Source: Micromonospora tulbaghiae (GTDB lineage: Bacteria; Actinomycetota; Actinomycetes; Mycobacteriales; Micromonosporaceae). From it: a DNA stretch of 64,000 bases. The stretch is from assembly GCF_900091605.1 (NCBI RefSeq), contig NZ_FMCQ01000008.1, positions 186,001 to 250,000 on the forward strand, in the 5' to 3' direction. The notes beneath the pieces are model-generated. The model saw only the letters and a list, made by a program, of their open reading frames with translations. It was not told the DNA's origin and ran no database searches. This document shows positions 16,368 to 56,416 of the stretch, piece by piece. The position numbers were made by a program, and so were the translations under genes. The number at the start of each line of letters is the position of its first letter. Position 1 is the first letter of the stretch.

Positions 16368-17332
16368 CGGTCGCCTCCGCTCAGGCCGGTGGCCGCTTCC
16401 GCCGGCCGGGTGCCGCCGGTGGCCGCCTCCGCCTGCCGCCCGCCGGTGGCCGCCTCCGTCGGCGACGCGCTCGCAGGCCGGGTGCCGGTCGCGGTGGCGA
16501 GCCGGGGGCTGCCGGTGGCACGCCAGACGGCGAGCGCGTCGGCGGTGGCGCGGACGTCGTGCACGCGTACCCCCCAGGCGCCGGCCGCGACGGCGAGCAC
16601 GCTCGTCGCGACGGTCGCGGCCTCCCGGCCGGCGGTGGGCCGGGGCTCGCCGGCCGGGTCGGCGAGCAGCCGGCCGAGGTAGGACTTGCGGCTGGCCCCG
16701 AACAGCACCGGAAAGCCCAGGTCGACCAGCTCGGGCAGGCGGGCGCTCAGCGCCCAGTTGTGGGCGGCGGTCTTCGCGAAGCCCAGGCCCGGGTCGACGA
16801 TGATCCGGTCGGCGGCCACCCCGGCGGCGAGCGCGGCGTCGACGCGCCGGCTCAGCTCGTCCCGGACCTCGGCCACCACGTCGGTGTACGTGGCCAGCTC
16901 GCGCATCCCGCGGGAGTGCCCCCGCCAGTGCATGAGCACCCAGGGGCAGCCGGCGTCGCGGACCACCCGGGCCATGTCCGGGTCGGCGAGGCCGCCGGAG
17001 ACGTCGTTGACCACGTACGCGCCGGCGGCGAGGACCGCCTCGGCGACCCGGGCGCGGCTGGTGTCGATACTGACCCGGATGCCGGCGGCGCTCAGCTCGC
17101 GGACCACCGGCAGCACCCGGGCGGTCTCCGTCTCCGCGTCGACCCGGTCGGCGCCGGGCCGGGTGGACTCGCCGCCCACGTCGATCAGGTCGGCGCCGTC
17201 GGAGCGTAGTCGCACCCCGTGTGCGACGGCCGTGTCCAGATCGGCGTATCTGCCGCCGTCGGAGAAGGAGTCGGGCGTGACGTTGAGGACGCCCATCACC
17301 ACCGGGGTCTCCGCCCGTACCAGATCGGTCAC
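16364..17332 (-). CDS. folP: Dihydropteroate synthase with repetitive C-terminal tail
   Basis: 322 residues. Condenses 6-hydroxymethyldihydropterin pyrophosphate with p-aminobenzoate; the sulfonamide target. Signatures: MGVLNVTPDSFSDGG, VGGESTRPGA, DTSRARVAEA, VNDVSGG, LMHWRG, DPGLGFAKT, GASRKSYLG and HDVRA. The GTG at 17332 is chosen because it places MGVLNVT about 13 residues from the N-terminus, as in relatives; ATGs further upstream (17410, 17434) have no clear ribosome site. The last 40 or so residues carry an Ala/Thr/Gly repeat (TEAATGG, AEAATGG, AEAATG) beyond the usual end. Confidence 0.94.
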   Translation of the reverse strand: MTDLVRAETPVVMGVLNVTPDSFSDGGRYADLDTAVAHGVRLRSDGADLIDVGGESTRPGADRVDAETETARVLPVVRELSAAGIRVSIDTSRARVAEAVLAAGAYVVNDVSGGLADPDMARVVRDAGCPWVLMHWRGHSRGMRELATYTDVVAEVRDELSRRVDAALAAGVAADRIIVDPGLGFAKTAAHNWALSARLPELVDLGFPVLFGASRKSYLGRLLADPAGEPRPTAGREAATVATSVLAVAAGAWGVRVHDVRATADALAVWRATGSPRLATATGTRPASASPTEAATGGRQAEAATGGTRPAEAATGLSGGDR

Positions 17333-17464
17333 GGACCCGACAGTACCGTTCGCCGGCAGGGCTTCCGGCCACCGGGCGAGCGCCCGACGCGGCACCCCTG
17401 ACGTGCGCATTGGAACAGGTGTACGATCGGTCATCCGGGCCGTCCGAGGTCGACTCTTCACGGC

Positions 17465-17493
17465 TTGTCGCAAAGGTGGCCGGGCCGTACGCT
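17465..17493 (+). promoter_or_regulatory. Candidate sigma-70-type promoter
   Basis: TTGTCG (17465-17470), 17-bp spacer, TACGCT (17488-17493). Spacing is ideal for a primary-sigma promoter and it points toward the plus-strand operon, leaving an untranslated leader of about 190 nt. Confidence 0.5.
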
Positions 17494-17561
17494 TTGGAAT
17501 TGCCCAGCATCGAGATGGCGAAGCCTGGAGGGAGGGCCGAAGCGGGAAGAATCCCCCCAAA

Positions 17562-17584
17562 ACTCACCACTCTGCGTGGTGGGT
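17562..17584. promoter_or_regulatory. Hairpin in the leader of the T4SS-like operon
   Basis: ACTCACCAC (17562-17570), loop TCTGC, GTGGTGGGT (17576-17584): a 9-bp stem with one mismatch, about 105 nt before the first GTG. It could be an attenuator, a terminator reading either way or an operator. Confidence 0.4.
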
Positions 17585-17690
17585 GACGGACTCAGCGTTG
17601 ACGGCGCTGTCTCTGACGAGCACCATCCCGCCAGGCTTGCCTACTTGCACCAACGCGGCGCTGCCGGCCGCGACCTTGGGGAGGTTTCCA

Positions 17691-18005
17691 GTGATCGCCA
17701 TCGAGCTCATGGCAACGGCGTCCAGTGCCGTGGACCACGCGCTCCACACCCTGGCGTCGACTCCACTCGCCGAGCCGGCCCCGAAGGGCATCGACACCGA
17801 CAACGTCGTCACCTTCTTCGCCAGCAAGATCGCGCCGATCCTGCTCGCGGTCCTCGGAGTGATCTTCATCGGCCGGGCCAGCCGGGGTGAGATCTCCAAG
17901 GTGCTGACCAGCTCGGCCATCGCCATCATCGGCCTGGCCTTCATCGCCGGAGCGGCCACACTCTTCTTCGTCGGCGACTACCTGATCAACCTGATCTTCG
18001 AGTAG
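17691..18005 (+). CDS. Small two-helix membrane protein, VirB2/TrbC-like size
   Basis: 104 residues: a short N-terminal region, then two hydrophobic helices (APILLAVLGVIFIGRAS and SSAIAIIGLAFIAGAATLFFVGDYLI) separated by a short basic loop. That layout, and its place at the head of an operon with a VirB4-like ATPase, resemble pilin-like VirB2/TrbC subunits of type IV secretion systems; no sequence motif proves it. GTG is chosen because GGGGAGG lies 6 nt upstream; an ATG six codons in is possible. The next gene is 14 bp away. Confidence 0.7.
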   Translation: MIAIELMATASSAVDHALHTLASTPLAEPAPKGIDTDNVVTFFASKIAPILLAVLGVIFIGRASRGEISKVLTSSAIAIIGLAFIAGAATLFFVGDYLINLIFE

Positions 18006-18019
18006 GGCGTTGGGCGACG

Positions 18020-18382
18020 ATGCGGCTGCGCACCGACGACGACATCTACCGGGCACGCCTCGTCTACCTGGGGCCGCCCGGGTACACCCTTCCCGTCCAC
18101 CTGCCGTACGCCCAGTACGGCCTGTTCATGCTGCTCGTACCCCTCTACATGTTCATCCACTGGTTGTTCACGCTCCAGGTCGAGCTGTTCCCCGCCTGGG
18201 AGATCTCGCTGGCGATCGTGACGACCTCGTTCATCTTCCGGTACGTCGACCCGGACCGGCCCGCGCGCATGGTCATCCGGACCGCGCTGACCGACTGGCG
18301 ACGCACCCGGGAACCGGCCACCGAGCAGCGGGATCCGCGGCTCGTCGCGAGCCGGATCAGGATCCGGGAGGAACTGGCATGA
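18020..18382 (+). CDS. VirB3/PrgI-like membrane protein
   Basis: 120 residues. Cytoplasmic N-terminus, two hydrophobic segments (YGLFMLLVPLYMFIHWLFTLQV and ISLAIVTTSFIFRYV), then a basic C-terminal tail ending VASRIRIREELA. Small proteins of this shape precede VirB4 ATPases in conjugation operons (VirB3, PrgI), and here only an 18-codon frame separates it from the ATPase. Assignment is by size, topology and context. Confidence 0.65.
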   Translation: MRLRTDDDIYRARLVYLGPPGYTLPVHLPYAQYGLFMLLVPLYMFIHWLFTLQVELFPAWEISLAIVTTSFIFRYVDPDRPARMVIRTALTDWRRTREPATEQRDPRLVASRIRIREELA

Positions 18383-18435
18383 CCGGGCGTACGACAACCG
18401 TGCAGACGAACGACGCGGGTGAGGCGGTCGCATGA
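18379..18435 (+). CDS. 18-codon minicistron linking two operon genes
   Basis: Frame encoding MTGRTTTVQTNDAGEAVA. Its ATG overlaps the previous gene's TGA (ATGA at 18379-18382) and its own TGA overlaps the ATG of the VirB4-like gene (ATGA at 18432-18435). A ribosome site GGGAGGA lies 7-8 nt before it and GGTGAGG lies before the downstream start. It either serves as a translational relay or makes a real micropeptide. Sequence alone cannot show the peptide is functional. Confidence 0.5.
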   Translation: MTGRTTTVQTNDAGEAVA

Positions 18436-21400
18436 GTCGCTCTTCCACGCCGGGTTCCCCGGCCGGGCGCCCGGCCGGGCCCACCGGTAACGGTGCGCGA
18501 TCGTTCGACTACCCGCCGGACGAGGATCTGGACGAGGTCGTCCTGGACAGCGCGCTCGTCACCAGCCCCGGGCACAGCCGCGTCGGCGTCTTCCAGCCGC
18601 CGCGACCGCTCACCCCGCGCGAGCCGGTACGCCCCGACGGCGACATCGACTCCCCCTTCCTCGACCTGTTCGGCGGCGCGCAGCCCCGGCGGCGACCGGC
18701 CGCGCCCACGCCGCCCGCACCGGTCGAGCCGGTGGTGGCCCCGCCCCGCCGCGGCGTCGGCCGCGAGCCCCTGCCGATCCCGCACCAGCCCGCCGTGCCG
18801 GTCGCGCCGGTGCCCCGGCCCGAACCGGAACCACCGGCCCGCGAGCAGACCCCTGGGGTACGCGTGGTCGGGCGCCCCCGGCCCGAGCCCACACACGCCG
18901 CACCGCTGCCGATCGAGCCGTCCCTGCCCGACCCGCCGGCCGCGATCGCCCCGCCGCCGCCGTCGCGTAGCCGGGTGCCGCAGCAGGCCGGTGACCGGCT
19001 GCCCGCTCTCCGGCCCCCGGCCGAGCCCGAGCCGGCGCTCCCGCCGCCCCCGCAGATCCACGCCCCCGCGCCCGCGCCTGCTCCCGCCGACTACCGGGAG
19101 CCGGATCTCGCTGCGGCCGACCCGCTCGCGGCCGGCGCGGCGCCGTCGCGGGAGGTCGGCCGTCCCGCGCACCGCGAGGTGGCGCCGCCCCGGCAGCGCA
19201 CGCCGGACCGCCGGAACCGGCCGACCAAGCCGGTCCGGGTCCGCGCCCCGAAGATCAAGTTCGGCGACCGGGATCCGTCGGTCGAGCTGGCCATCACCGA
19301 GATCGCCGGCCACCTCACCTTCACCCCGAACACCGTCACCGCCTGGTACTGGCTGCCCGAGGTGCGGTGGGCGTTCCGGCCGGACGCCGAACGCGAGGCG
19401 CTTCTCTCGGCGATCTCCGAGCAGTACGCCGGACTCGCCGGGTTCCGGCTGCACCTGCGTCGCACCACCCGGCCCTTCCCGGCCGACGAGTGGGCCCGCA
19501 CCATCGACGCGCACACCGCCGCCCCGCTGCCCGACGTACCGGGCACCACCGGATGGGCCGACCACCTGGTCGCCGCCCAGCGGCACCTGATGGCGGTCAA
19601 CCACGCCGAGGGCCAGACCTACCTCGGTGTCACGTTCGCCCGCCGGTCACTCGGCGACTCACTCACCGAACGACTGCTCCGCACATTCGGCCGGGGCACC
19701 GCCGACGGCGAGCGGCGCCGGCTGAGCCGTACCGTCGAGCAGTTCGACGAGGTCCTCGGCGCGTTCGGCATGCGCGGGCGCCGGGTCACCGCGCCCGAGC
19801 TGGAGTGGCTGCTCTACCGCTCGGTGGCGCTGTGCATGGCGCCGCCCGGCGTCCTGTCCCCGATCACCAACGGCCGGTGGGAACGCGGCGATCTGCTGGC
19901 CCTCACCGAGCAGGTCGAGCGCTACCGCACCCCGTACGGCTCCACGGTGAAGCTGGTCAACCGGATGACCGGCGAGGAACGGCACGTCGCCGTGCTCGCG
20001 GTCGGCCGGATGGAGCCGCTGGAGATCCCCGAACGGCACGAGCCCTGGCTGCACTTCCACGAGCGGCTGCCGTGGCCGATGGAGCTGTCCACCCGGGTCG
20101 ACATCCTCGGCCCCAACGACTCCTTCCGGAACCTCGAACACCGGCTCCGGATGATCCGCTCCCAGCAGCTCGACTACGCCGAGCACGGCATCGACGCGCC
20201 CCCGGAGCTGGAACGACTGGCCAAGCGCGCGCTGGTGATCGGTGACGAGATGACCACCGGCCTGCCCGTCGACTCGGCCCGGGCACACGGCTGGCACCGG
20301 ATCGCGGTCGGCGGCCGTACCCGGGAGGAGTGCATGGAGCGGGCCCGGCGGCTCATCCAGCTCTACTCCCGGGAGCTGCGGATCTCGCTGCAGCATCCGA
20401 AGAACCAGGACTGGCTGGCCCGCGAGTTCATCCCCGGCGAGCCGATCGCCAACACCGGCTACGTCCGGCGGATGCCCGTCAACCTGCTCGCCGCCGCGCT
20501 GCCCCAGGCCGCGTCCACGGTCGGCGACCGGCGCGGCGACCTGATCGGGCGTACCGCCGGCACCTGCCGCCGGCCGGTCTTCCTCGACCTGCACTTCCCG
20601 ATGGAGGTACGCGAGCGCTCCGGCCTCGCCGTCTTCGTCGCCGAGCCGGGCGGTGGCAAGTCGACGCTGCTCGGCGCGCTCGGCTACCTGGCCGCCCGCC
20701 GCGGCGTGCAGGTGACGCTGCTCGACCCGTCCGGCCCGCTGGCCCGGCTCTGCGCCATGCCCGAGCTGGCCCCGTACTCCCGGGTGCTCAACCTGACCGG
20801 CTCCGAGCAGGGCACGCTGGCGCCGTACTCGCTGATCCCGACGCCGCTGCGCAGCGAGTTCGGCGCCGGGGCGCCAGGCGACCGCGAGTTCGAGATCGCC
20901 GTCTCCAACGCCCGAGCCGAGCGCCGGATGCTGGTGCAGGACATCTGCATGATGCTGGTGCCGCCGCAGGTGGCCCGGGAGGCGTCCACCGCCACGCTGT
21001 TCCGGCACGCGGTACGCCAGGTGCCCGCCGAGGAGACCTCCACGCTCGACGACGTGGTCACCTGCCTTCAGGGGCTCGACGACGACGCCGGCCGCGAGCT
21101 GGCCCACCTGCTGCTCGACACCGCCGAGATGCCGCTGGCCATGCTCTTCTTCGGCCGGCCGCCGGAAGGGCTGCTCGGCGCCGACGCCGCGCTCACCGTC
21201 ATCACCATGGCCGGCCTGCGGCTCCCCGACCTCAAGATCGAGCGGGAGTACTGGTCGGCCGAGGAGGCGCTCGCGCTGCCGATGCTGCACACCGCGCACC
21301 GGCTCGCCGTACGCCGCTGCTACGGCGGGTCGATGTCCTCCCGCAAGCTGGTCGGCCTCGACGAGGCACACTTCATGGAGGGCTGGCGGTCCGGGCGGTC

Positions 21401-21815
21401 GTTCCTGGTCCGGCTCGCCCGCGACTCCCGCAAGTGGAACCTCGCAGCGCTCGTCGCCTCGCAGAACCCGAAGGACATCCTCGGCCTCGACGTGCAGAAC
21501 CTCGTCTCCACCGTCTTCGTCGGCCGGATCGCCGAGGACAGCGAGATCGCCTCCGAGGCGCTGCGCCTGCTGCGGGTGCCTGTCGACGACGGGTACGAAG
21601 CGACACTCGCCTCGCTCTCCCAGGCCGACAGCGGATCGGCCAACCGGCTCGGCTTCCGCGAGTTCGTCATGCGCGACGTCGATGGGCGCGTGCAGAAGGT
21701 CCGAGTCGACGTGTCGTACGTCGACGGGCTGCTGGAGCACCTGGACACCACCCCCGCTGCGGTCGCCCAGGCCGCCGGGATACTGCCGACCGTCCTGGCT
21801 GACCTGGAGGCGTGA
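18432..21815 (+). CDS. VirB4/TraC-like secretion ATPase with proline-rich N-terminal extension
   Basis: 1127 residues. The first 270 or so are disordered and Pro/Arg rich. A conserved domain starts near residue 275 (KIKFGDRDPSVELAITEIAGHLTF). The ATPase part has Walker A 'EPGGGKSTLLGAL' at about 737-748 and Walker B 'KLVGLDEAHFMEGW' at about 970-985, followed by 'ALVASQNPKDILGLDVQNLVSTVFVGR', which matches the VirB4/TraC/HerA motif pattern. Energy source for a membrane-bound type IV secretion-like apparatus. Operon members on both sides are small or polytopic membrane proteins. No relaxase or obvious VirD4 coupling protein is in the window. Confidence 0.85.
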   Translation: MSRSSTPGSPAGRPAGPTGNGARSFDYPPDEDLDEVVLDSALVTSPGHSRVGVFQPPRPLTPREPVRPDGDIDSPFLDLFGGAQPRRRPAAPTPPAPVEPVVAPPRRGVGREPLPIPHQPAVPVAPVPRPEPEPPAREQTPGVRVVGRPRPEPTHAAPLPIEPSLPDPPAAIAPPPPSRSRVPQQAGDRLPALRPPAEPEPALPPPPQIHAPAPAPAPADYREPDLAAADPLAAGAAPSREVGRPAHREVAPPRQRTPDRRNRPTKPVRVRAPKIKFGDRDPSVELAITEIAGHLTFTPNTVTAWYWLPEVRWAFRPDAEREALLSAISEQYAGLAGFRLHLRRTTRPFPADEWARTIDAHTAAPLPDVPGTTGWADHLVAAQRHLMAVNHAEGQTYLGVTFARRSLGDSLTERLLRTFGRGTADGERRRLSRTVEQFDEVLGAFGMRGRRVTAPELEWLLYRSVALCMAPPGVLSPITNGRWERGDLLALTEQVERYRTPYGSTVKLVNRMTGEERHVAVLAVGRMEPLEIPERHEPWLHFHERLPWPMELSTRVDILGPNDSFRNLEHRLRMIRSQQLDYAEHGIDAPPELERLAKRALVIGDEMTTGLPVDSARAHGWHRIAVGGRTREECMERARRLIQLYSRELRISLQHPKNQDWLAREFIPGEPIANTGYVRRMPVNLLAAALPQAASTVGDRRGDLIGRTAGTCRRPVFLDLHFPMEVRERSGLAVFVAEPGGGKSTLLGALGYLAARRGVQVTLLDPSGPLARLCAMPELAPYSRVLNLTGSEQGTLAPYSLIPTPLRSEFGAGAPGDREFEIAVSNARAERRMLVQDICMMLVPPQVAREASTATLFRHAVRQVPAEETSTLDDVVTCLQGLDDDAGRELAHLLLDTAEMPLAMLFFGRPPEGLLGADAALTVITMAGLRLPDLKIEREYWSAEEALALPMLHTAHRLAVRRCYGGSMSSRKLVGLDEAHFMEGWRSGRSFLVRLARDSRKWNLAALVASQNPKDILGLDVQNLVSTVFVGRIAEDSEIASEALRLLRVPVDDGYEATLASLSQADSGSANRLGFREFVMRDVDGRVQKVRVDVSYVDGLLEHLDTTPAAVAQAAGILPTVLADLEA

Positions 21816-21816
21816 C

Positions 21817-23913
21817 ATGGCAAGGGCCTGTGTCGGAGTCCCCGGTCGAGCCGAGGCGGAGCCCAGGCGGCGTCCGGCAAGGCGGCGTTTCTTCCGGATA
21901 CCGGTGTCGTATCCGGACGGAACTCCAACGCGGCCGGTCGTCGCCTGGGCCCGCCGCAGGCCGGCCAGGGACTCCGACACAGGCCCGCGGGCCCGGGCAC
22001 GGATCGCGGCGCTCCTCCTCGCGCTCGGCGTACTCGCCGGGGCCACGATCTCCTGGCCGGTGATCGGGGCGGCCACACCCGCGTACGCGGCCGCGCCGGT
22101 CACCCAGGCGCGCGCCGAGCTGTGCAGCACCAAGGAGTGGCAGGCCGACTTCCGGTCCTGCGTCGGCAAGCTCAAGGAGGTGAGCGAGGACCAGGTCGAG
22201 TGCCGTAATGCCCCGGTGCCCGCCGCGCCGGACTCGGGCCTGGCCGGCTGGTTCGCGTCCCGGCCCGACTCGGCGAAGGAGCCCGGCCCGAAGGGCCTCT
22301 ACAGCGACTACGGGTACGCCGGATACAGCTACAACACGTACGACGTGGACGGCGGCTGCGCCTCCTCGGTGCTGCACCCGGACTACCGATTCACCACGAT
22401 GGTCGCCAACGGCGAGTTCATGTTCGCCAACGCGGTGATCGGCGCCTCGAACGCGCTGCGTGAGCGCGCCTGGGATCCGCGGACGATGTGGAGCTGGGCC
22501 GACCCGCTTGTGGAGCAGGCCACCAAGGCCGTCTACCAGAAGGTGTTCAGCGTCTTCGGCATCATCACCGTCTGCGTGGTCGGCCTCTACCTGCTCTGGC
22601 GGTCCCGCCAGTCGGACATGAGCAACGCGATGACCACCGCGGGCTGGGCGCTGCTGGTGATGGTGGCGGTGACCGCGCTGGCCGCCTGGCCGGTCAAGTC
22701 CGCGAACATCGCCGACAACACGCTGATCACCACGCTGGGCGTGGTGCACGACGCGGTCGGTCCCTCCTCCAAGACCGTTCCGCCGGACAAGTGCGCGCTG
22801 CCGAACCCGAGCGCCTGTGTCGACAAGCGGCCACCCGCCGTGCGCGCGAGCGACACGGCGACCGAGACGATGCTCTACCGGAACTGGCTGCGCGGTGTGC
22901 TCGGTTCGGCCGACAGCGAGACCGCCAAGAAGTACGGCGAGGCGCTCTACGACGCCAAGTCCCTGACCTGGGGCGAGGCGGAGGCTATCCGGACTAAGCC
23001 GGCCACTCGCGACGTGGTCATCAAGGCCAAGCAACAGCAGTGGGCCAAGGTCGCCGAGCAGATCAAGACCGAGGACCCGGAGGCGTACGAGTATCTCCAG
23101 GGCACCCGGGACATGGACCGGATCGGCGCCGGGTTCATCGCGGTGCTGGCATCGGTGCTGTTCGCCATGTTCGACCTCACCGCGTCGCTGCTGGTGCTGC
23201 TCGGCTTCCTGATCTTCCGCTGGGCGGTGATCGCCGCGCCGATCCTCGGCACGGTCGGCCTGATGCGCCCGGCCAGCGCCGGCCTCCGGCGGCTGGCGAA
23301 CGCGGTGGTCGCCGCGGTCTTCAACATCGCCATCTTCGGCACCGGCGCGGCCATCTACCTCTTCGCCGTCGACCTGATCATGAACACCGCCACGCTGCCC
23401 GGCTGGCTCCAGGTGGTGCTGGTCTGGCTCTGCGGGGTGGTCGGCTGGTTGCTGCTGCGCCCGTACCGCCGGATCACCCAGCTCGGCGGCAAGGACAGCA
23501 GCGAGGCGGTCAGCTCGGCCGGCTCCTGGCACCGGCGGTTCTTCCGGGACATGCGGATCGCGGCCCGGCTGGACGTGGCGGAACCCGGCGGCACCAACGA
23601 GCCGGCGATCGGCAAGCGCCGTACCGTCACGGCCGACCAGCGCAGCCTCCGGCCGGAGGCCCGGCACGAGGATCCGGCACACAGCGCCAGACCCGCTGAA
23701 CGGGAGCGGCCGGACGGGCGGGAACGGCCGGAGGAGGCACCCGCCAGCGGACGACCGGCGACCACACCCCGGCCCCGGCGCGCGCCGTCGACCTGGACCG
23801 AGCCGGACGTGCCGGAGGAGTCGCCCTCCTACGCCGTCTACCGGCCGGACTCGGCGGGCCGCGGCACCTCCCCGGCCCGGCCGGCGCCGCGCATCCGCTC
23901 CGAGGCCCGGTGA
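21817..23913 (+). CDS. Polytopic VirB6/TrbL-like membrane protein
   Basis: 698 residues. Residues 3-57 are Arg-rich and encoded by a 163-bp palindrome. A signal-peptide-like segment follows (63-88, with AYA near 89-91), then an extracytoplasmic Cys-containing domain. Helices lie near 245-262, 273-292, 437-478 (two), 490-518 and 530-548, with a charged cytoplasmic tail to 698. The topology and position after a VirB4-like ATPase fit VirB6/TrbL channel proteins. ATG with GGAGG upstream lies 1 bp after the previous stop. Confidence 0.72.
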   Translation: MARACVGVPGRAEAEPRRRPARRRFFRIPVSYPDGTPTRPVVAWARRRPARDSDTGPRARARIAALLLALGVLAGATISWPVIGAATPAYAAAPVTQARAELCSTKEWQADFRSCVGKLKEVSEDQVECRNAPVPAAPDSGLAGWFASRPDSAKEPGPKGLYSDYGYAGYSYNTYDVDGGCASSVLHPDYRFTTMVANGEFMFANAVIGASNALRERAWDPRTMWSWADPLVEQATKAVYQKVFSVFGIITVCVVGLYLLWRSRQSDMSNAMTTAGWALLVMVAVTALAAWPVKSANIADNTLITTLGVVHDAVGPSSKTVPPDKCALPNPSACVDKRPPAVRASDTATETMLYRNWLRGVLGSADSETAKKYGEALYDAKSLTWGEAEAIRTKPATRDVVIKAKQQQWAKVAEQIKTEDPEAYEYLQGTRDMDRIGAGFIAVLASVLFAMFDLTASLLVLLGFLIFRWAVIAAPILGTVGLMRPASAGLRRLANAVVAAVFNIAIFGTGAAIYLFAVDLIMNTATLPGWLQVVLVWLCGVVGWLLLRPYRRITQLGGKDSSEAVSSAGSWHRRFFRDMRIAARLDVAEPGGTNEPAIGKRRTVTADQRSLRPEARHEDPAHSARPAERERPDGRERPEEAPASGRPATTPRPRRAPSTWTEPDVPEESPSYAVYRPDSAGRGTSPARPAPRIRSEAR
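21824..21986. repeat. 163-bp imperfect palindrome inside a coding sequence
   Basis: Outer arms GGGCCTGTGTCGGAGTCCC (21824-21842) and its exact complement (21968-21986) match 19 of 19. The centre is a second perfect palindrome, TCCGGATAC (21893-21901) and GTATCCGGA (21909-21917), around the same axis (21905). Intermediate sequence is partly symmetric too. It looks like a MITE or REP-like insertion at the beginning of the VirB6-like gene. Confidence 0.85.
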
Positions 23914-24470
23914 GTCCGGTGCGACGCGCGCTGGAATTCCTCTTCACCCGGATCCTCCGGTCCCGGATCGGCGTCGCCCTCGTGATCGCCGTGCTGGTCT
24001 TCGGGGTGATCGGCGCGGCCCGCCTGGTCGCCGGGCCGGGCGACCCGGGCCTCGGCCTGACCAGTCGACCCACCCAGCCGATCAGCACTTCGGACCCGGA
24101 GGCCGGTGACGACGGCGTGCTGGCCAGCCCGCCGGCCGCGGTCGCTCCGAAGACCCGGCCGGGCGAGGACACGCCGGAGCAGGTCGCCGGGCGGTTCACC
24201 ACCGCGTGGCTGAGCGGTCCGGGCAGCAGCGGCGACGCCTGGCAGGCCCGCCTGCGGCCACTCTCCACCCCGGCGCTGGCCGAGAAGATGACCGGTGCCG
24301 ACCCGGAGACCGTTCCCGCACGGAGGACGACGGGCGCTCCGACGCTCCGGCCCCGCACCGAGTCCTTCGTGGAGGCGTTGGTCCCGCTGGACAACGGCAC
24401 GCTCCGGCTCGAACTCGTCGCACCGGACGGGCCCTGGCTGGTGGACGCGATCGACTGGGAGCGGTCGTGA
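23910..24470 (+). CDS. VirB8/TcpC-like bitopic protein
   Basis: 186 residues: one N-terminal helix (IGVALVIAVLVFGVIGAARLVAG, about residues 19-41), a Pro-rich linker and an extracytoplasmic domain beginning 'TPEQVAGRFTTAWLSG' and ending 'LRLELVAPDGPWLVDAIDWE'. That resembles the NTF2-like periplasmic domain of VirB8/TcpC conjugation proteins. GTG start overlaps the previous stop as GTGA, and the next gene overlaps likewise. Family assignment is moderate. Confidence 0.68.
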   Translation: MSPVRRALEFLFTRILRSRIGVALVIAVLVFGVIGAARLVAGPGDPGLGLTSRPTQPISTSDPEAGDDGVLASPPAAVAPKTRPGEDTPEQVAGRFTTAWLSGPGSSGDAWQARLRPLSTPALAEKMTGADPETVPARRTTGAPTLRPRTESFVEALVPLDNGTLRLELVAPDGPWLVDAIDWERS

Positions 24471-25642
24471 CCGCCGGCCCGGCCGTCGCCGGACAGGTCC
24501 GCCGGAAGCTACGCCTGGGCGTGGTCGCCACCGCCGTCGCGAGCGTGCTCGCCCTGCTCTGCTGCGTCGGCGGCGCCGGCGCCTTCCTCCTCACCGAACT
24601 GGGCGGCGACGAGGACGACCCGAAGCTCGCGGCCCTGAACTGTGACCCGGCCTACCAGGTGAACCTGACCGGCGACATGCCGCGCTTCGCCGAGTACGGC
24701 GAGCGCCAGCTGCGCAACGCCGCGGTCATCATCAAGGTCGGCCAGGACATGAAGCTCCCCGCTCGCGGCTGGGTGATCGCGCTGGCCACCGCGATGCAGG
24801 AATCAGCGCTGCGCAACCTCGCGAACAGCACCGTCCCGGCGTCGCTCGCGCTGCCGCACGAGGGAGTGGGCGCCGACCACGACTCGCTCGGCCTGTTCCA
24901 GCAGCGGCCCGGGTGGGGCAGCGTCGAGCAGCGGATGACGCCCTCGTACACGGCCCGGAAGTTCTACCAGAAGATGGTGCAGGTGCCGAACTGGCAGCAG
25001 CGCCCGCTCACAGTCGTGGCCCAGCGGGTCCAGGTGAGCGCCTATCCCGACGCCTACGCCAAGCACGAGGAACTGGCCGGACGCATCGTCGACGCGCTCG
25101 CCGGCGGCGCCGCCCGGACCGTGGAGATCGCCGGGAAGGCCGTGTGCGACGCGGCGGCCGGAGACCGGATCGCCGCCTCCGGCTGGACCGCGCCGCTGCC
25201 CGGCGGCGTGGTCTCCGGCTTCCGCACCACCGCCCGTCCCAGCCACCACGGCGTGGACCTGGCCGCCTCGAAGGGCACGCCGATCCACGCCGCCTCGGCG
25301 GGCCGGGTGCTGGTGGCCCGCTGCGACCCCGACCGCTCCGGGCGGAAGGACTGCGACCGGGACGGCTGGCCGAACAAGGGTGGCTGCGGATGGTTCGTGG
25401 ACATCCTGCACGCCGGAGGGTTCATCACCCGTTACTGCCACATGGTCGAGCGACCGAGGGTGGTGCCGGGTCAGTCGGTCGCGGCGGGTGAGGTCATCGG
25501 GCTCTCCGGCAGCAGCGGCAACTCGTCCGGCCCGCACCTGCACTTCGAGGTGCACAAGAACGGCGACCGGTCCAGCAACGGCGCGGACAACCCGGTGCCC
25601 TTCATGCGCAAGCGGGGCGCGCCCCTCGGCGAGACCGAGTGA
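24467..25642 (+). CDS. Bifunctional cell-wall hydrolase: transglycosylase-like plus M23 endopeptidase
   Basis: 391 residues. N-terminal membrane anchor (residues about 17-42), then a lysozyme/transglycosylase-like part (WVIALATAMQESALRNL about 100-116, GLFQQRPGWG). The C-terminal M23 metallopeptidase domain has the Zn ligands HHGVD (about 258-262) and HLHFEVH (about 358-364). It would open peptidoglycan for an envelope-spanning machine, the role of VirB1/CwlT-type proteins in type IV systems. Starts at GTG overlapping the previous stop (GTGA). Confidence 0.88.
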   Translation: MTAGPAVAGQVRRKLRLGVVATAVASVLALLCCVGGAGAFLLTELGGDEDDPKLAALNCDPAYQVNLTGDMPRFAEYGERQLRNAAVIIKVGQDMKLPARGWVIALATAMQESALRNLANSTVPASLALPHEGVGADHDSLGLFQQRPGWGSVEQRMTPSYTARKFYQKMVQVPNWQQRPLTVVAQRVQVSAYPDAYAKHEELAGRIVDALAGGAARTVEIAGKAVCDAAAGDRIAASGWTAPLPGGVVSGFRTTARPSHHGVDLAASKGTPIHAASAGRVLVARCDPDRSGRKDCDRDGWPNKGGCGWFVDILHAGGFITRYCHMVERPRVVPGQSVAAGEVIGLSGSSGNSSGPHLHFEVHKNGDRSSNGADNPVPFMRKRGAPLGETE

Positions 25643-25652
25643 GGCCGGGCGG

Positions 25653-26252
25653 ATGAGCAATCCCCTGCCCGACCCGTTCGCCGACCGGCCGGACTGGGCG
25701 CCGCTGCCGCCCCGGCCGGTGGAGACCGTCCCCGCCACCGGCGGGACCGAGCTGCGTGGCCGCCGGGTGCTGGTCGGCCTGCCCGGTCTCGGCTGGCGCG
25801 GCGACCTGCGGGCCGACGAGCGCGTGGTGCAGGGCAGCCGCACCTACGTGCCGGTGATCCCGGAACACGAGTGGTACCGGGCCGAGGCCGAGCAGGTGGA
25901 GGTGTTCGCCCCGCTGGTGCCTGTGGAACGGGTCTGGGTGGAGACCATCGGCGAGCGGCGTCCGGCGACCGGGGCGACCGCCCCGGGACTCCGGCTGGTC
26001 TCGCTGGACGTGCCCGAACGCCGGCCGCCCACGCCGGTGTTCGAGGCCGACGCGGTGACCGGGCGGCGCGTGGTGCACGTGGACAACGGTGTGGAACGGC
26101 GCGACCTGCGTGCCGTCACCGAGACCTACTCCGGCGCGGACGGCGACATCTGCGTGCGGGTGGCCCCGGAGCTGGAGTGGTACCGGTGGGCGTGGCGTGG
26201 CCAGGCACCGACCACGTTGGAGGTGCCGGTGCACCTGCTCTGGCTCGAGTAG
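25653..26252 (+). CDS. Protein with an internal duplication, unknown function
   Basis: 199 residues, no signal or helix. Two halves are clearly related: residues 36-97 (GRRVLVG...RGDLRADE...VIPEHEWYRAEAEQVEVFAPLVPVERVWVE) and 137-199 (GRRVVHV...RRDLRAVTE...VAPELEWYRWAWRGQ...LEVPVHLLWLE). Shared anchors are GRRV, RDLRA, P-E-x-E-W-Y-R and the final V-W/L-W. Probably a tandem beta-rich domain. Last gene of the secretion-like operon, 10 bp after the hydrolase. Confidence 0.68.
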   Translation: MSNPLPDPFADRPDWAPLPPRPVETVPATGGTELRGRRVLVGLPGLGWRGDLRADERVVQGSRTYVPVIPEHEWYRAEAEQVEVFAPLVPVERVWVETIGERRPATGATAPGLRLVSLDVPERRPPTPVFEADAVTGRRVVHVDNGVERRDLRAVTETYSGADGDICVRVAPELEWYRWAWRGQAPTTLEVPVHLLWLE

Positions 26253-26257
26253 CCGCG

Positions 26258-26815
26258 TCAAGCGGCGCGTTGTGCCGAGCAGACGCCCCAGCCGTCTTGG
26301 TCCTTCGTCTCAAAAACCCAAGTCTGGCGATCACCCTGGCGAATCCCGTCCACCACCGCTGAGAACACCAGGTCTACCCGCACCTGAGCCTTCTCACCCG
26401 CCTGCTCGACGCTGAGGTTCTCCCAGCTCACGGAAATCGTCGTGTTAAACCGTTGCTCCCGTGCGACAAGGTCATCGCGAAGTGATCGCAGATCGTCAAG
26501 GTCGACGTCGTTACGGCACTCGAACCCCGCGGCCTTGACGTCATTGCGTTCGTCGACGGAGTACTGGATGTAACTAGCGACGACAACCTCAGGAGAGCCA
26601 CGGTCCGGGGCGGTTGCGCGGTCGTACAGCACGAACCCCACCACCCCGCCGACAGTGCACAGCACCGCCAGCACCCCCGCGACCACAGTGAGCACTGTGC
26701 GCACCGGGCGCTTGGGGCGTACCGGTGCGGGAGCGGGCGCGGGGGGCGCCAACTGCTCCGGCGGGGTCCGCTGCGCCGGTACTCGGGACACCTGGGAACC
26801 GGCGGGGGGCTGCAC
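26258..26815 (-). CDS. Single-pass membrane protein with extracytoplasmic NTF2-like domain
   Basis: 185 residues. Pro-rich N-terminus, one helix (TVLTVVAGVLAVLCTVGGVVGFVLYD), then about 115 residues exposed outside. GC content is lower than its neighbours, a possible sign of acquisition. GTG at 26815 is preferred over a GTG three codons upstream, because AGGAGG ends 8 nt before 26815 but abuts the other. It ends 5 bp from the secretion-like operon's last stop, convergent. Resembles small Rv0361-type membrane proteins; function unknown. Confidence 0.65.
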   Translation of the reverse strand: MQPPAGSQVSRVPAQRTPPEQLAPPAPAPAPVRPKRPVRTVLTVVAGVLAVLCTVGGVVGFVLYDRATAPDRGSPEVVVASYIQYSVDERNDVKAAGFECRNDVDLDDLRSLRDDLVAREQRFNTTISVSWENLSVEQAGEKAQVRVDLVFSAVVDGIRQGDRQTWVFETKDQDGWGVCSAQRAA

Positions 26816-27007
26816 TGATTCCACCTCCTGAGGCTATCGGCTGCGCCTCGCGTACCCAATGCCTGGAACTGGCGGATCGTGGCGAACCGCCGGGCGGACG
26901 CCGCCCGGCGGCGGGGTGAGGCTGCTCACCGCCGACCAGCTCACCGCGCCGACCGACATCCCGGTGGACGGCCGCCGCCTGGGTTACCGTCACACCTCGG
27001 GGAGGAC

Positions 27008-29611
27008 ATGTCGGCCTCGGAAAGAGAGGTGGACGCGGTGGCGACTCCGAAGGCGCGCGCCGGCCGGGCCGCCGCGCTGCACCGCCGGGCCGAGGCCGCC
27101 GCGACGGCGGCGGCGGGCATCCTCGACGAGATCCGGCCCGCGCCGGCCGACCATCATCGGCAGTACGAGCTGGCCGAGCGCCTGCGGGCGGCGGCCGATC
27201 TGGCGGCGCCCGGTTGGGCCGGCGGGCCGCTGGAATCACTGAGCGCGACGACGCCTCCCGGTGACGGTCTGCCGCCGCTGGTCCGGGTGGGCACCGCAGC
27301 GCCGCTCGACGACGCCCGCTTCCCCGCGCTGGTGCCGTTGCTCGGCAGCGGCCACCTGAGCCTCGACGCCGACGCCTCGGACGCCCGGGTGGCCGGGCTG
27401 CTCCGCGCGCTGCTGCTGCGCGTCTTCGCTGCCACTCCGGCGGGCGCGCTGCTGGCGCGTGCGGTCGACGGCGGTTCCGGCGAGACCTTCGCCGGGTACG
27501 CGCCGCTCTCCGACGCCGGTCTGCTGCCCCCGCCCGCCACCGACCTCGCCGGGATGCGCGCCGTACTGGCCGAGGCGGAGCAGTGGGTGGCCGCCGGGAC
27601 GGCCCGGCAGCGCGGGCACGACCGGACGCTGCTGCTCTTGGTCGCGGCGCTGCCCGACGGTACGACCACCGCCGACCTGGACCGGCTCGCCGGACTGGCG
27701 GAGGGCGGGCCGCGCGCCGGGCTGCATCTGGTGCTCGCCGGCTGGCCGGACGGCAGTCCGCTGCCGCGCGCCACAGCGGTCACGGTCCGCACCGCGTACG
27801 CGCTTGTCGGTGACCCGCCGGGCGCCGGCTTCAGCAGTCCCGGCGCCGAGCCGCCGGGCGGGCTGAACTCGCCCGTGTTCCTCGACGACGATCCGCCCGC
27901 CGACCTGGTCGCCGCTGTGTGCGCGCGGCTGGCCCGGCAGATCGAGGACGGCTCCCGCCTCTCCCTGCGTGACCTGCTGCCGACGGACGGTTTCTGGACG
28001 GCCGGCTCGGCCGACGGGCTCAGCACCACTGTCGGTGACGCCGCCGGACGCCCGGTCAGCCTCGGCTTCACCGAGCTGACCCCCCACTGGCTGGTCAGCG
28101 GCCGGGGCCAGGCGGGCCGGTCCGCGTTCCTGACCGACGCGTTATTCGGCCTCGCCGCCCGGTACGGCCCGGACGAGCTGGCGCTCTACCTCGCCGACCT
28201 GGCCGACGGCGAGTCCTTCGTGGAGTTCCTCCAGACCGAGCGGGACCGCTCCTGGGTGCCGCAGGTGCGTGCCGCCGGCATGGCGGCCGACCGGGAGTAC
28301 GTGGCCGACCTGTTCGGCGAGCTGGAGGCGGAGCTGCGCCGCCGCGAGGAGGCGTCCCGGCGGGCCGGCGGGCAGCGGTACGCCGAGCTGCGGCAGCACC
28401 AGCCGCTGCCCCGGATCGTCTGCGTGGTCGACAACTTCCCGCTGGCGCTGCGTGAGCGGGACCGCCTCGCCGCCGACCTGCTGGCCCGGCTGGACGCGCT
28501 CGCCCGCGCCGGCCGGTCGTACGGGATCCACCTGGTGCTGGCCGGCGAGGGAGACCTGGGCATCGGCGGCCCGCGCGACCCGCTGCTCGGCCAGTTCCCG
28601 GTGCGGGTGGCTCTGCCCGGCGGCTCGGCGGTGCTGGAGCCGGCGAACGACTCGGCGGCCGGGCTGCCGGTGGGCAGCGCGGTGGTGAACACGGCCGGCG
28701 GTCTGGGCGGTCCTCGCGGCGCGACCCGGGGACACGAGCGGATGATCCGCTTCCCTGATCCGTACGAGGATCCCGAGGTCCTGACCGGCCTGCGGCGACG
28801 GCTCTGGGAGGCGCGGGGCGACTCGGCGACGCCTCCGGTGGTATTCGCCGGGTACGCCCGCCCGCTGCTCGCCAACGATCCGCGGCACCGGGCCGCGCTC
28901 GCCGGCCGGGCACACGCGCCCGCCGCGCTGCTGGGCCGGGCGGTGGACGTACGGCGGTCCACCGTGACGGTGCCGCTGGGGCCGGGCGCGGGGCGGAATC
29001 TGGCCGTCCTGGGGCGGGACGAGGAGGCCGAGCGCCTGCTGGTCACGGCGGTACGCAGCGCGGCGGCGGCGCAACCGGGCTCGGCCCGGTTCGTGCTGGC
29101 GCCGCTGGCGAACGGGTCGGCCGAGCCGGCCGGAGGGCTCGCCGCCGAGTTGGCCGGACGCCACCGGGTGGAGACCGTCGACGCGGCCGGGCTGCGCACC
29201 GCCATGGAGTCGGACGAGCCGGGCTACCTGGTGGTCTTCGGGCTGGACGTGCCGGACGCCGCCGAGCTTCCGCCCGACCTGCTGCGGACGCTGCTGCTGG
29301 AGGGGCCGCCGACCGGCCGGCACCTGCTCGGCTGGTGGCGGACACCGGCTCCGCTGGCCGGGCTGCTCGGCCCGGAGGGCGAGGTGGACAAGCTCACCGC
29401 CGTGGCGGTCACCGACGTACCGGGCGGCCGGCTGGAGCAGCTCTTCGACCGCCCGGTCTGGTGGCGGCCCCGGCCGGGTCGCGCGATGCTCTGGGACGGC
29501 CCGGACGAGCAGGGCACCGTCTTCGTGCCGTACGGCACGGCCGAGGTGGCGACGGCGCGGGTCGAGCCGGGCCCGCAGGTGACGGACCGCGCCGGGGAGG
29601 GGGCCGCATGA
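27008..29611 (+). CDS. FtsK/SpoIIIE-like protein with degenerate ATPase motifs
   Basis: 867 residues. Shape and motif positions match an FtsK/SpoIIIE translocase domain in the middle, e.g. 'LTPHWLVSGRGQAGRSAFLTDALFG'. The P-loop is GRGQAGRS (about 364-371), with Arg in place of the invariant Lys. The Walker B position reads IVCVVDNFPLAL, with Asn in place of Glu. ATP hydrolysis is therefore doubtful; a structural or scaffold role is more likely. A rare TTA leucine codon lies at 28142-28144. ATG with GGGGAGG; coupled to the next gene. Confidence 0.75.
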   Translation: MSASEREVDAVATPKARAGRAAALHRRAEAAATAAAGILDEIRPAPADHHRQYELAERLRAAADLAAPGWAGGPLESLSATTPPGDGLPPLVRVGTAAPLDDARFPALVPLLGSGHLSLDADASDARVAGLLRALLLRVFAATPAGALLARAVDGGSGETFAGYAPLSDAGLLPPPATDLAGMRAVLAEAEQWVAAGTARQRGHDRTLLLLVAALPDGTTTADLDRLAGLAEGGPRAGLHLVLAGWPDGSPLPRATAVTVRTAYALVGDPPGAGFSSPGAEPPGGLNSPVFLDDDPPADLVAAVCARLARQIEDGSRLSLRDLLPTDGFWTAGSADGLSTTVGDAAGRPVSLGFTELTPHWLVSGRGQAGRSAFLTDALFGLAARYGPDELALYLADLADGESFVEFLQTERDRSWVPQVRAAGMAADREYVADLFGELEAELRRREEASRRAGGQRYAELRQHQPLPRIVCVVDNFPLALRERDRLAADLLARLDALARAGRSYGIHLVLAGEGDLGIGGPRDPLLGQFPVRVALPGGSAVLEPANDSAAGLPVGSAVVNTAGGLGGPRGATRGHERMIRFPDPYEDPEVLTGLRRRLWEARGDSATPPVVFAGYARPLLANDPRHRAALAGRAHAPAALLGRAVDVRRSTVTVPLGPGAGRNLAVLGRDEEAERLLVTAVRSAAAAQPGSARFVLAPLANGSAEPAGGLAAELAGRHRVETVDAAGLRTAMESDEPGYLVVFGLDVPDAAELPPDLLRTLLLEGPPTGRHLLGWWRTPAPLAGLLGPEGEVDKLTAVAVTDVPGGRLEQLFDRPVWWRPRPGRAMLWDGPDEQGTVFVPYGTAEVATARVEPGPQVTDRAGEGAA

Positions 29612-30309
29612 GTGAGACCGGCACGGCCGTACCGGGGCCCCGCTCGGGTGGGCCGACCACTGTGGCGGACCCCGCCGAGTCGGCCTGGGCGGAGTACGTC
29701 GCGGCCGCGCGGGCGCTCGACGGCGTACGCCGGGCGGCGGCCACCGCGGCTGGGGAGCAGGCACGGTCGGTGGCCGCGGCCCGTGAGGAGCTGACCGCGG
29801 TACGCGAACGGCTGGCGCCGCAGCAGTCCCGGCTGCGTGAGCTGGGCGTACCGTCGATGTCGCTGGTCCCGACGCCACCGGAGGTGACCGAGGCGGCCCG
29901 GTCGATGGCGGGCGGGCCGTCGTCGGTGCTGGCGGCGCTGCGCGCGGCCGGGGACTGGGCGGACGCCGCGGACGACACGCTGAGCGCCCGTGGCCTGCCG
30001 CGGCTGGCCCGGTGGCCGGCCCGTCCCCGCAACCTGCTGGTGTACGGGCCGCTGGCGCTCGTGGTGCCGCTCCTCCAGCTGGTGCTGTACGCGGTCGCCG
30101 GTCCGGGGCCGGTGACGGTGCTGGCGCTGCTCGTGGGGCTGCCGCTGCCGGCTGTCGCGTTCATGCTGGGCTGGCTCGCGGTGGGGCGGGTCTTCCGCCC
30201 GCGGCCCACCGACCGGGTGGACCGGACGCCCCGCTTCGGCGCCCTGGTCTGCCTGGTCCCGGCGGTGCTCACCGCCGCCGGCCTGCTGCTGGCCATGCTG
30301 CCCGACTGA
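29608..30309 (+). CDS. Coiled-coil and three-helix membrane protein
   Basis: 233 residues. The N-terminal half is helical and Ala/Arg/Glu rich, probably coiled coil (residues about 28-75). The C-terminal half has hydrophobic segments LLVYGPLALVVPLLQLVLYAVAG, TVLALLVGLPLPAVAFMLGWLAV and LVCLVPAVLTAAGLLLAML. Its ATG overlaps the stop of the FtsK-like gene (ATGA), so the products are probably partners, e.g. a membrane anchor for the FtsK-like protein. Confidence 0.65.
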   Translation: MSETGTAVPGPRSGGPTTVADPAESAWAEYVAAARALDGVRRAAATAAGEQARSVAAAREELTAVRERLAPQQSRLRELGVPSMSLVPTPPEVTEAARSMAGGPSSVLAALRAAGDWADAADDTLSARGLPRLARWPARPRNLLVYGPLALVVPLLQLVLYAVAGPGPVTVLALLVGLPLPAVAFMLGWLAVGRVFRPRPTDRVDRTPRFGALVCLVPAVLTAAGLLLAMLPD

Positions 30310-33237: not shown

Positions 33238-33320
33238 GTGCGCGCGAGGAGTGAGCTTGCGAGCCCCGCAGTCGCGCACATTCGAAACCTCGGTGCGCGC
33301 GACGAGTGAGCTTGCGAGCC
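33238..33320. repeat. Pair of 28-bp direct repeats, GAGTGAGCTTGCGAGCC type
   Basis: Copies at 33238-33265 and 33293-33320 differ at one base of 28 and are 55 bp apart. Core GAGTGAGCTTGCGAGCC. Similar sequences are dispersed in Micromonosporaceae intergenic DNA (from memory, not checked). Confidence 0.8.
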
Positions 33321-33419
33321 CGGCACTTACGCGTAGGGCGAACCGGGGTTTGAGCCGGCGCGGCGGGGAGCTCCCACCCGGCCCGCCCACACCGCACGGT
33401 CACGCGGTTCGAGGGGCCG

Positions 33420-40234: not shown

Positions 40235-40250
40235 CGCTCACGCCTGCCGC

Positions 40251-56414: not shown

Positions 56415-56416
56415 CC

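Follow-up and report, generated by a model that had tools for sequence, protein, structure and literature searches.

A conjugation-derived type IV secretion system (T4SS) core has probably been kept at a fixed chromosomal site between folP and folE in Micromonospora tulbaghiae and its relatives, inherited vertically and turned to the service of the host, with the host task left open. That the first six genes of the block (A–F) are the core of a conjugation-derived T4SS is almost certain, and the block is very likely both vertically inherited and host-serving. If so, it would be a second actinobacterial host-adopted T4SS core, next to the cmd operon of Streptomyces; to our knowledge, there are few descriptions of Gram-positive hosts that have adopted a conjugation machine. 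A first-pass annotation of the same DNA had spoken of a reduced, domesticated T4SS, and this description is now supported by the match to a plasmid module, the VirB8-type predicted fold of one protein, the location, selection, congruent divergence and the absence of a relaxase or integrase match.

The locus was studied in a stretch of 64,000 nucleotides (the window; GCF_900091605.1, contig NZ_FMCQ01000008.1, positions 186,001–250,000 of the forward strand). Ten genes (A–J, Table 1) lie between folP and folE, and the upstream FolK, FolB and FolP and the downstream FolE, all identified with Pfam, are encoded on the minus strand. The 13-kb block thus does separate folP from folE as annotated, but it is not entirely on the plus strand because of H. 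Similarly, the T4SS-like operon had been extended over 17691–30309, of which the part up to 26252 stands as a T4SS-like unit of seven plus-strand genes (A–G, 17691–26252) and the part beyond does not, given an FtsK/EccC-like protein at I; whether H, I and J belong to the unit is uncertain. Linkage by ATGA/GTGA overlaps holds for D/E and E/F (4 bases each), and A–G are otherwise tightly packed. The GC content of the block is within the range of the remaining window, and a scan of positions 17200–18100 for a sigma-70 promoter and a terminator gave no match.

Table 1. The ten genes between folP and folE, in window coordinates
Gene	Product	Coordinates	Strand	Basis or note
A	104 aa, heads the module; two predicted TM segments	17691..18005	+	GTG start behind GGGGAGG
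B	120 aa, TcpE/VirB3 position	18020..18382	+	One TM segment (simple hydropathy scan)
C	VirB4-type ATPase, 1127 aa, long proline-rich N-terminal region	18432..21815	+	AAA_10
D	VirB6-like polytopic membrane protein, six predicted TM segments	21817..23913	+	Profile match
E	Predicted VirB8-like protein: N-terminal TM helix, linker, NTF2-like domain	23910..24470	+	Predicted fold
F	Membrane-anchored peptidoglycan hydrolase: lysozyme/transglycosylase-like part and M23 endopeptidase	24467..25642	+	Peptidase_M23, 1.7e-25
G	199 aa, soluble, internally duplicated, module-associated	25653..26252	+	Model, plasmid relatives
H	Fast-evolving, one TM segment	26258..26824	-	Rv0361_Cterm, 1.7e-4, below cut-off
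I	EccC/FtsK-like	27008..29611	+	FtsK_SpoIIIE, 1.8e-12; EccCa, 2.4e-16, below cut-off
J	233-aa membrane protein adjoining I	29608..30309	+	MIGRI family, 2e-3, below cut-off

Genes A–F match, gene for gene and in the same order, a module carried by eight plasmids (Streptomyces pSM17C, pRVR2 and the plasmids of NBC_01304 and NEAU-S7GS2, a Nonomuraea and a Pseudonocardia plasmid, and two Rhodococcus plasmids). In a 6 × 6 profile comparison with this module, built from ORF sets holding 62–81 rows out of a possible 81 (genes truncated at a contig end or with an odd length were excluded), the diagonal ranged from 97.9 to 100 per cent (A, 97.9; B, 98.8; D, 100), and the 30 off-diagonal cells did not exceed 7.0 per cent except D versus A (23.1 per cent). 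When the Micromonosporaceae and plasmid relatives were merged into a combined profile, each of A–F also had its positional equivalent as the best among 38 distant references. This likeness to more distant modules depends largely on the merged rows; once the profile is limited to Micromonosporaceae, A (2 per cent), B (7 per cent at most) and most of D (a match to one group only, 79 per cent) fade. The plasmid modules differ from the chromosomal block in being plasmid-borne, in having an FtsK- or VirD4-type protein with an intact Walker A motif nearby in seven of eight regions and ParA in six of eight, and in the shorter N-terminal region of their VirB4. Their hydrolases are annotated as NlpC/P60 or C40 in six cases and are M23-type in the two Rhodococcus plasmids, and the Nonomuraea module has one extra small annotated gene before VirB4.

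The putative motor protein C matches AAA_10 above cut-off (1.7e-23) and the conjugation ATPase model TcpF far below its cut-off (5e-21). Both nucleotide-binding motifs, GKS of Walker A and LDEAH of Walker B, are kept in 70/70 aligned rows, and the HMM search proposed in the first-pass annotation agrees with its call of a VirB4-like ATPase with intact motifs. The 40 best plasmid homologues are 30–37 per cent identical to C, with alignments starting at residue ~245–291, and a phmmer search against solved structures gave no match at E 0.01. In the VirB4 phylogeny, which took 14 of the 15 named chromosomal rows (L066 was left out) and carries a warning of long branches, the 14 chromosomal rows form one clade (support 100/99), with the eight plasmid rows next to it (99/97). 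A second AAA_10 protein in the genome scores 34.6 bits against a cut-off of 27.5 with the whole protein scanned, so C is not the sole VirB4-type protein of M. tulbaghiae.

Among the small membrane proteins, A has the size and the two TM segments expected of the pilin-size two-helix protein that had been proposed, but no match in Pfam or NCBIfam scans. Beyond actinobacterial plasmids its match reaches 53 per cent with the combined profile and 2 per cent with the Micromonosporaceae profile alone. A is a pilin candidate at most, with no match above 5 per cent to the T4SS_pilin protein of a second T4SS module in the genome (see below). For B, called VirB3/PrgI-like, neither PrgI nor TcpE was matched in Pfam; the best of the 38 references is a TcpE protein (64 per cent with plasmid relatives added, at most 7 per cent without). 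The call of D as a polytopic VirB6-like protein is sustained by its predicted topology and by its match to second-group Streptomyces plasmid VirB6 proteins (97 per cent combined, 79 per cent with the Micromonosporaceae profile alone), in addition to the plasmid-module match. D reaches the NF046089 mobilome membrane family at 8e-4, below the family cut-off, and Pfam TrbL was not matched.

By its predicted fold, E is VirB8-like with one such domain, in keeping with the VirB8/TcpC-like label given to it. The AlphaFold2 model has a pLDDT of 80.7; ranks 1–2 in Foldseek are the PrgL VirB8 domain at E 0.011, with none below 0.001, and structural comparison (VIA) gave Z 11.6 for TraM of pIP501, 9.9 for TcpC and 9.9 for VirB8 of B. 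suis, with other NTF2-like proteins at Z 9–9.7. A profile search of E against solved structures returned only fibronectin, at E 0.1. The second-group plasmids carry TcpC plus a separate gene at the position of E, and the idea that E is unrelated to VirB8, considered for this reason, was dropped after the fold comparison. In F, the GPHLHFE motif is present in 79/79 rows. The N-terminal part of F, which we take to be lysozyme-like, has no Pfam match but is common to the plasmid hydrolases (100 per cent) and to second-group M23 proteins (99.8 per cent with the combined profile).

Further afield, the block resembles the Tn916-type T4SS of Firmicutes, with matches of C to Orf16 (99.6 per cent) and of D to Orf15 (81.5 per cent, both with the combined profile) and a VirB8-fold protein in each. 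It differs in having no relaxase match in the window and in E, whose NTF2-like domain is single and whose sequence does not match TcpC; moreover, Orf14 and Orf17 reach only 5.5 and 10.9 per cent, and Orf15 falls to 0.8 per cent with the Micromonosporaceae profile alone.

As to function, B, D and E would be membrane channel proteins and A their small partner in the membrane, C would be the VirB4 motor, spending ATP on channel assembly or transport, and F would be a wall-cutting hydrolase that opens the wall. The core would have come between folP and folE, together with its soluble partner G, before the sampled Micromonosporaceae diverged, would have been inherited vertically ever since, and would now serve a host task and no longer plasmid transfer. 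By analogy, the best precedent is the cmdABCDEF operon of Streptomyces coelicolor (SCO4126–4131), which presumably sits at a different chromosomal place. Like the block, cmdABCDEF is chromosomal and encodes a VirB4-like ATPase and membrane proteins; the operon is reported to be conserved in several Streptomyces and related to the transfer genes of plasmid SLP2 (PMC2782261). Its deletion is reported to have disturbed chromosome segregation and led to defective sporulation, 6–8 per cent anucleate spores and overproduction of actinorhodin, with transfer of an SLP2-derived plasmid not significantly changed ('data not shown' in the paper; PMC2782261). An independent screen of mutants from mutagenesis likewise picked up cmdBCDEF (PMC6585502). 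From the SLP2 comparison in the paper, cmd apparently belongs with the second, more distant module group, whose Streptomyces plasmid VirB4 proteins are 23–28 per cent identical to C over a quarter to half of its length. We did not equate the block with cmd, which is known here by the published description only.

With cmd as the analogue, the likeliest task would be one in the development of hyphae, be it sporulation, the segregation of chromosomes or remodelling of the envelope, ahead of DNA uptake, and a role specifically in development has somewhat less than an even chance. A more elaborate scenario is rather doubtful: a plasmid conjugation machine, captured independently of Streptomyces cmd, would have become an organelle of the host, passed on vertically and supplied with additional components (G and perhaps I, a pseudo-ATPase in the Micromonospora–Salinispora branch), and would carry DNA or protein through the envelope of hyphae or spores in development. 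The fixed address, with no transfer genes recognised beside it, makes the cargo of such machines testable in laboratory strains of Salinispora or Micromonospora. The sole mention met in the literature consulted is a remark on M. lupini, which has a single virB4 amid genes described as unknown (PMC4182475).

The gene that follows the core, G, has no match in Pfam or NCBIfam. Its model (pLDDT 86) consists of two barrel-like repeats, and the best structural match has Z 6.7; a Tudor/SH3-like barrel was considered, but all Foldseek/VIA matches have Z <8 and no fold is claimed. Weak relatives occur in five plasmid records, of which four are from Streptomyces plasmids with a C homologue as well, and are found on the plasmids of three of the eight modules plus 891-h. 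Other T4SSs have been repurposed for protein export, and the core could likewise have been kept to secrete host proteins or peptides (e.g. wall or spore proteins, antagonistic factors) with G as substrate adaptor. G, a soluble protein, is indeed well conserved and accompanies the module, but no gene of the block was recognised as a substrate candidate and the relatives of G on transfer-type plasmids show that it is not confined to host-serving systems; we regard an exporter as unlikely.

I bears on whether the block still transfers DNA. The first-pass annotation had left this EccC/FtsK-like protein unnamed. It matches the window's own EccC at 97.4 per cent, Tn916 Orf21 at 72.6 per cent and plasmid FtsK/T4CP proteins at no more than 13.4 per cent, and one plasmid record only matches it. 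Its Walker A and B motifs are degenerate in M. tulbaghiae, where the protein lacks the Walker Lys and Glu, as they are in Micromonospora and Salinispora rows, and are intact in the Asanoa, Phytohabitans, Plantactinospora, Actinoplanes and Winogradskya rows. From these intact motifs and the match to the FtsK-type protein of Tn916, I may act as a coupling protein in those genera. A second, conventional T4SS module (L099) lies on contig C15 of the same genome and comprises, by Pfam, T4SS_pilin, TrbL_4, PrgI, a TrwB-like coupling protein and Replic_Relax. Its VirB4-type ATPase matches C (95 per cent) and its hydrolase matches F (100 per cent), but none of its seven proteins is matched above 5 per cent by A, B, D or E. 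With this module in the genome and Streptomyces cmd already known, the label 'orphan' given to the block needs care.

A block that still passes chromosomal DNA or mobilisable elements from one hypha to another, with a relaxase and coupling protein encoded elsewhere or with I where its motifs are intact, would be consistent with the retained Walker motifs of C, the coupling and Replic_Relax proteins of L099 and the plasmid location of the closest relatives found outside the family. We nevertheless consider it distinctly unlikely, as no relaxase was matched within the window, I resembles EccC and has lost intact motifs in Micromonospora and Salinispora, and the cmd operon is reported to have had no significant effect on transfer of the plasmid tested (PMC2782261).

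The retention of a host-serving core is consistent with its surroundings. Pfam revealed no relaxase, integrase or transposase among the 56 window ORFs scanned, the 64-kb window contains no tRNA, and no direct repeats of at least 22 bases flank the block (shorter att sites are below detection); it is thus no obvious mobile element, as had been noted earlier, and neither a relaxase nor an integrase was matched just outside it within the window. Relatives' loci were identified by their VirB4, with the best 80 of 257 retained, all from Micromonosporaceae; the sample therefore speaks for genomes that have this gene. In the comparison of the folP–folE interval across these relatives, C–H occur in order in 80/80 loci. 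The folK–folB–folP junction is present in 66 of the 68 loci with enough DNA, the run to folE in 61/70, and both junctions in 54 (all among the best 80 of 257); the loci at this address bear eight Micromonosporaceae genus names.

Median dN/dS values among these loci (Nei–Gojobori, rough at ~75 per cent GC) are 0.06–0.25 for A–G, 0.18 for I and 0.20 for J, and folK next door, at 0.38, does not fall below the block. In Mantel tests on best-match fragments from 54 of the 80 loci, divergence of all ten genes correlated with that of neighbouring genes (r = 0.60–0.91, above each of 500 permutations); the low value for C (0.598) is attributable to the fragments. Divergence that tracks the neighbouring genes, together with frames under purifying selection, argues for vertical inheritance and against an ICE that is recent or in decay. 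The remains of an ICE or plasmid decaying at a hot spot of insertion, a reading with which the lack of an integrase or relaxase match in the window and the other genes after H in some relatives would agree, is highly improbable in view of the intact, selected reading frames, the congruent divergence, the single location in loci with eight genus names (among the best 80 of 257) and the absence of flanking direct repeats of at least 22 bases.

The intactness of folP itself was poor (44/66), which we think reflects a start set too far upstream. H has a tblastn match in 80/80 loci (best 80 of 257 relatives) with a median dN/dS of 0.40, and in some relatives other genes follow it.

Genes A to G between folP and folE form a unit, and kinship to plasmid modules identifies its A–F part. 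A tblastn search with its VirB4 ATPase (C) matched 299 of 72,556 plasmid records, in each case over less than 80 per cent of C. The best 40 matches are on plasmids of Nonomuraea, Streptomyces, Pseudonocardia, and Rhodococcus, with 30–37 per cent identity over about three quarters of C. Eight of the best plasmid loci were read gene by gene, and all eight share one order: a small gene, a gene of 110–135 aa, VirB4, a large membrane protein, a short gene, and a wall hydrolase; the Nonomuraea plasmid differs in carrying one further small annotated gene ahead of VirB4. When profiles of A–F from Micromonosporaceae and from the plasmids were compared all against all, the positional pairs scored 97.9 (A), 98.8 (B), 100 (C), 100 (D), 98.9 (E), and 100 per cent (F), and the 30 remaining cells at most 7.0 per cent, except for D against A (23.1 per cent). 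The proposal in the first-pass annotation of a T4SS core in the chromosome is upheld, and the core is of conjugation type.

More distant references were 38 proteins of second-group Streptomyces plasmids (a more distant set of modules), Nocardiopsis, Bacillus subtilis and Paenibacillus plasmids, and a Tn916-like element. With profiles combining Micromonosporaceae and plasmid rows, the best match of each of A–F among these references was its positional equivalent (A 53, B 64, C 100, D 97, E 88.5, and F 99.8 per cent). With Micromonosporaceae rows alone, C (100 per cent), E (90 per cent), and F (99.6 per cent) retained their matches and D reached 79 per cent, whereas A (2 per cent) and B (7 per cent) no longer matched any of the 38. 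For this reason, the sequence relationship of C–F to conjugation proteins at large is firm, and that of A and B depends on the plasmid bridge.

Locations of the genes and other features discussed
Feature	Location	Strand	Remarks
Conserved stretch upstream of A	window 17462–17530		
A–G	window 17691–26252	+	one tight series
N-terminal addition in D	window 21817–21985		
H	window 26258–26824	-	opposed to A–G
I and J	window 27008–30309	+	after H
Direct repeats, upstream end of ftsH	window 33238–33332		
Type VII secretion genes	window 40290–47118		
Conventional T4SS module (L099)	contig C15 (G000), 40000–59900		T4SS_pilin, TrbL_4, PrgI, TraG-type ATPase, TrwB-like coupling protein, Replic_Relax, NlpC/P60 hydrolase

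The interval holds ten genes, described initially as a 13-kb plus-strand block; this is correct for A–G, I, and J, and not for H, a minus-strand gene. Pfam and NCBIfam bear out the earlier VirB4 and M23 calls, placing C among AAA_10/VirB4-type ATPases and F among M23 peptidases, and they class I as FtsK/SpoIIIE-EccC-like. Pfam gave no match for A, B, E, G, or H, and none above chance for the VirB6-like protein D. It confirmed the identity of FolK, FolB, FolP, FolE, and FtsH, and the remaining neighbours of the block resemble ordinary chromosomal genes. As was noted at first sight, no relaxase or integrase is visible: relaxases, integrases, and transposases have no Pfam match among the 56 window ORFs, the window contains no tRNA gene, and no direct repeats of at least 22 bases were found flanking the block.

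A second module exists in the same genome (6.49 Mb surveyed in 19 contigs, 99.98 per cent complete). AAA_10 matched twice, over the cut-off in the block and below it on contig C15; scanned whole, the C15 protein is also over the cut-off. Unlike the block, the C15 module has typical transfer parts, and its TrwB-like protein means that the cell does have a coupling protein.

In the Micromonosporaceae loci sampled, the block occupies a shared address. Among the genome contigs scanned, 257 relatives were confirmed and the best 80 (all Micromonosporaceae by title) were kept; since these loci were found through VirB4, the counts are conditional on its presence. The order C-D-E-F-G-H is kept in all 80 and A–G in 66, and in 12 of the other 14 a contig end lies upstream of C. 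The arrangement folK-folB-folP-A-B-C occurs in 66 of the 68 loci with enough upstream DNA; in the two others (L026 and L068), unrelated genes replace A, B, and the folate genes upstream of VirB4, by either rearrangement or assembly error. Downstream, 61 of the 70 loci with enough DNA run through I and J to folE, six have I and J without folE in the flank covered, and three (L006, L010, and L043) have other genes after H. The H–I junction takes insertions: those three carry a large minus-strand ORF (1259–1430 aa), accompanied in L006 by a TrmB-type regulator, and two Actinoplanes loci (L075 and L077) have ~2.4 kb of other DNA there.

Median dN/dS values against up to six near relatives are 0.06 (A), 0.08 (B), 0.15 (C), 0.18 (D), 0.25 (E), 0.18 (F), and 0.13 (G), then 0.40 (H), 0.18 (I), and 0.20 (J). 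The neighbours give 0.03 (folE), 0.09 (folB), 0.38 (folK), and 0.36 (folP, a value affected by its uncertain start). Over 54 loci, each of the ten genes diverges at the protein level in step with four neighbouring genes (distance correlations r = 0.60–0.91, each above all 500 permutations). In the VirB4 phylogeny, 14 chromosomal rows form one clade (support 100/99) beside eight plasmid rows, on long branches that leave the deeper joins unsure. These data are most simply read as a single capture from a plasmid lineage, predating the divergence of the sampled genera. Fast-evolving H, with one transmembrane segment, has a tblastn match in 80 of 80 loci and weakly resembles the mycobacterial Rv0361 family. 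D carries an N-terminal addition of ~50 residues missing in L001–L003 and the other near relatives compared, perhaps a small repeat insertion. The strongly conserved stretch upstream of A contains TTGTCG and TACGCT, 17 bases apart; a consensus scan calls no promoter in it.

The predicted model of E (pLDDT 80.7) begins with an N-terminal transmembrane helix, which a linker joins to a domain built from three helices and four strands. Foldseek ranked the VirB8 domain of PrgL first (E-value 1.1e-2, probability 0.99), with nothing below 0.001. VIA-align matched the model to TraM of pIP501 (Z 11.6, 96 residues, 2.5 Å), TcpC (9.9), Brucella suis VirB8 (9.9), CagV (9.9), and DotI (9.8). Because unrelated NTF2-like proteins also reach 9 to 9.7, this fold by itself is non-specific; predicted fold and gene position together make E, called VirB8/TcpC-like from the start, the likely VirB8 of the module.

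Mean column identity is higher in the soluble protein G (78 per cent, 58 rows) than in E (67 per cent, 60 rows). G contains the pattern GRRV...DLRA...EWYR...V..WVE twice, and its predicted model has two small barrels. The structural matches were Tudor/SH3-like with Z below 8, too weak for that assignment, which we set aside. At an E-value threshold of 0.01, five of the 72,556 plasmid records contain relatives of G (coverage 33–67 per cent, E-values 1e-6 to 3e-3). Four of the five records are plasmids of Streptomyces ranking among the eight best VirB4 matches, three of which were read as carrying the whole A–F module, and the fifth is a Thermobispora plasmid; on pRVR2, the relative and the hydrolase share a strand, the relative lying ~4 kb further downstream. 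On this evidence, G apparently accompanies the module.

I and J are not counted as core parts of the unit. The profile of I scored 97.4 per cent against the window's own EccC, 72.6 per cent against Tn916 Orf21, and at most 13.4 per cent against plasmid FtsK or VirD4 proteins. Of 62 aligned rows, eight retain both the Lys of Walker A and the Glu of Walker B (Asanoa, Phytohabitans, Plantactinospora, Winogradskya, and Actinoplanes); the other 54 all have Arg for Lys, and Asn (52), Ser (one), or Gly (one) for Glu. Read directly, the Lys is also intact in L074–L078 and is Val in L059. Because these residues are replaced in the Micromonospora–Salinispora branch and intact in other genera, the ATPase of I has degenerated in that branch while still under purifying selection (dN/dS 0.18), and may there be on its way to becoming a pseudo-ATPase.

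We consider the block to be probably the core of a conjugation-type T4SS that has settled in the chromosome and that the host keeps for some task of its own. Our confidence was lowered slightly by the loss of distant matches to A and B with the narrower profile and by a possible coupling role of I in other genera. The block is a new chromosomal variant of an already known machine type. Its nearest functional precedent, by analogy, is cmdABCDEF of Streptomyces coelicolor. According to PMC2782261, cmd expression is raised during aerial growth and sporulation, mutants other than cmdA have sporulation and segregation defects, CmdB is membrane-bound and needs its conserved lysines, and transfer of an SLP2-derived plasmid is not significantly affected (data not shown there). 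A developmental role is our best-supported guess for function, by analogy only. Other sources list cmdBCDEF among actinorhodin downmodulators (PMC6585502), treat actinobacterial ICEs (PMC3218068; PMC9513070), report a defective ICE near the chromosome middle in all strains studied (PMC9513070), which we guess to be cmd, and mention one virB4 gene amid unknown genes in Micromonospora lupini (PMC4182475). As M. lupini Lupac 08 is our locus L017, that gene is probably its C. The literature searched, mostly outside subscription journals and partly in excerpt, yielded no description of the locus as a T4SS operon.

Two further features lie elsewhere in the window. At the upstream end of ftsH are two 40-base direct repeats, 88 per cent alike and 55 bases apart, and ~10 kb from the block are type VII secretion genes encoding EccD, a 1312-aa EccC-type protein, and a subtilase.
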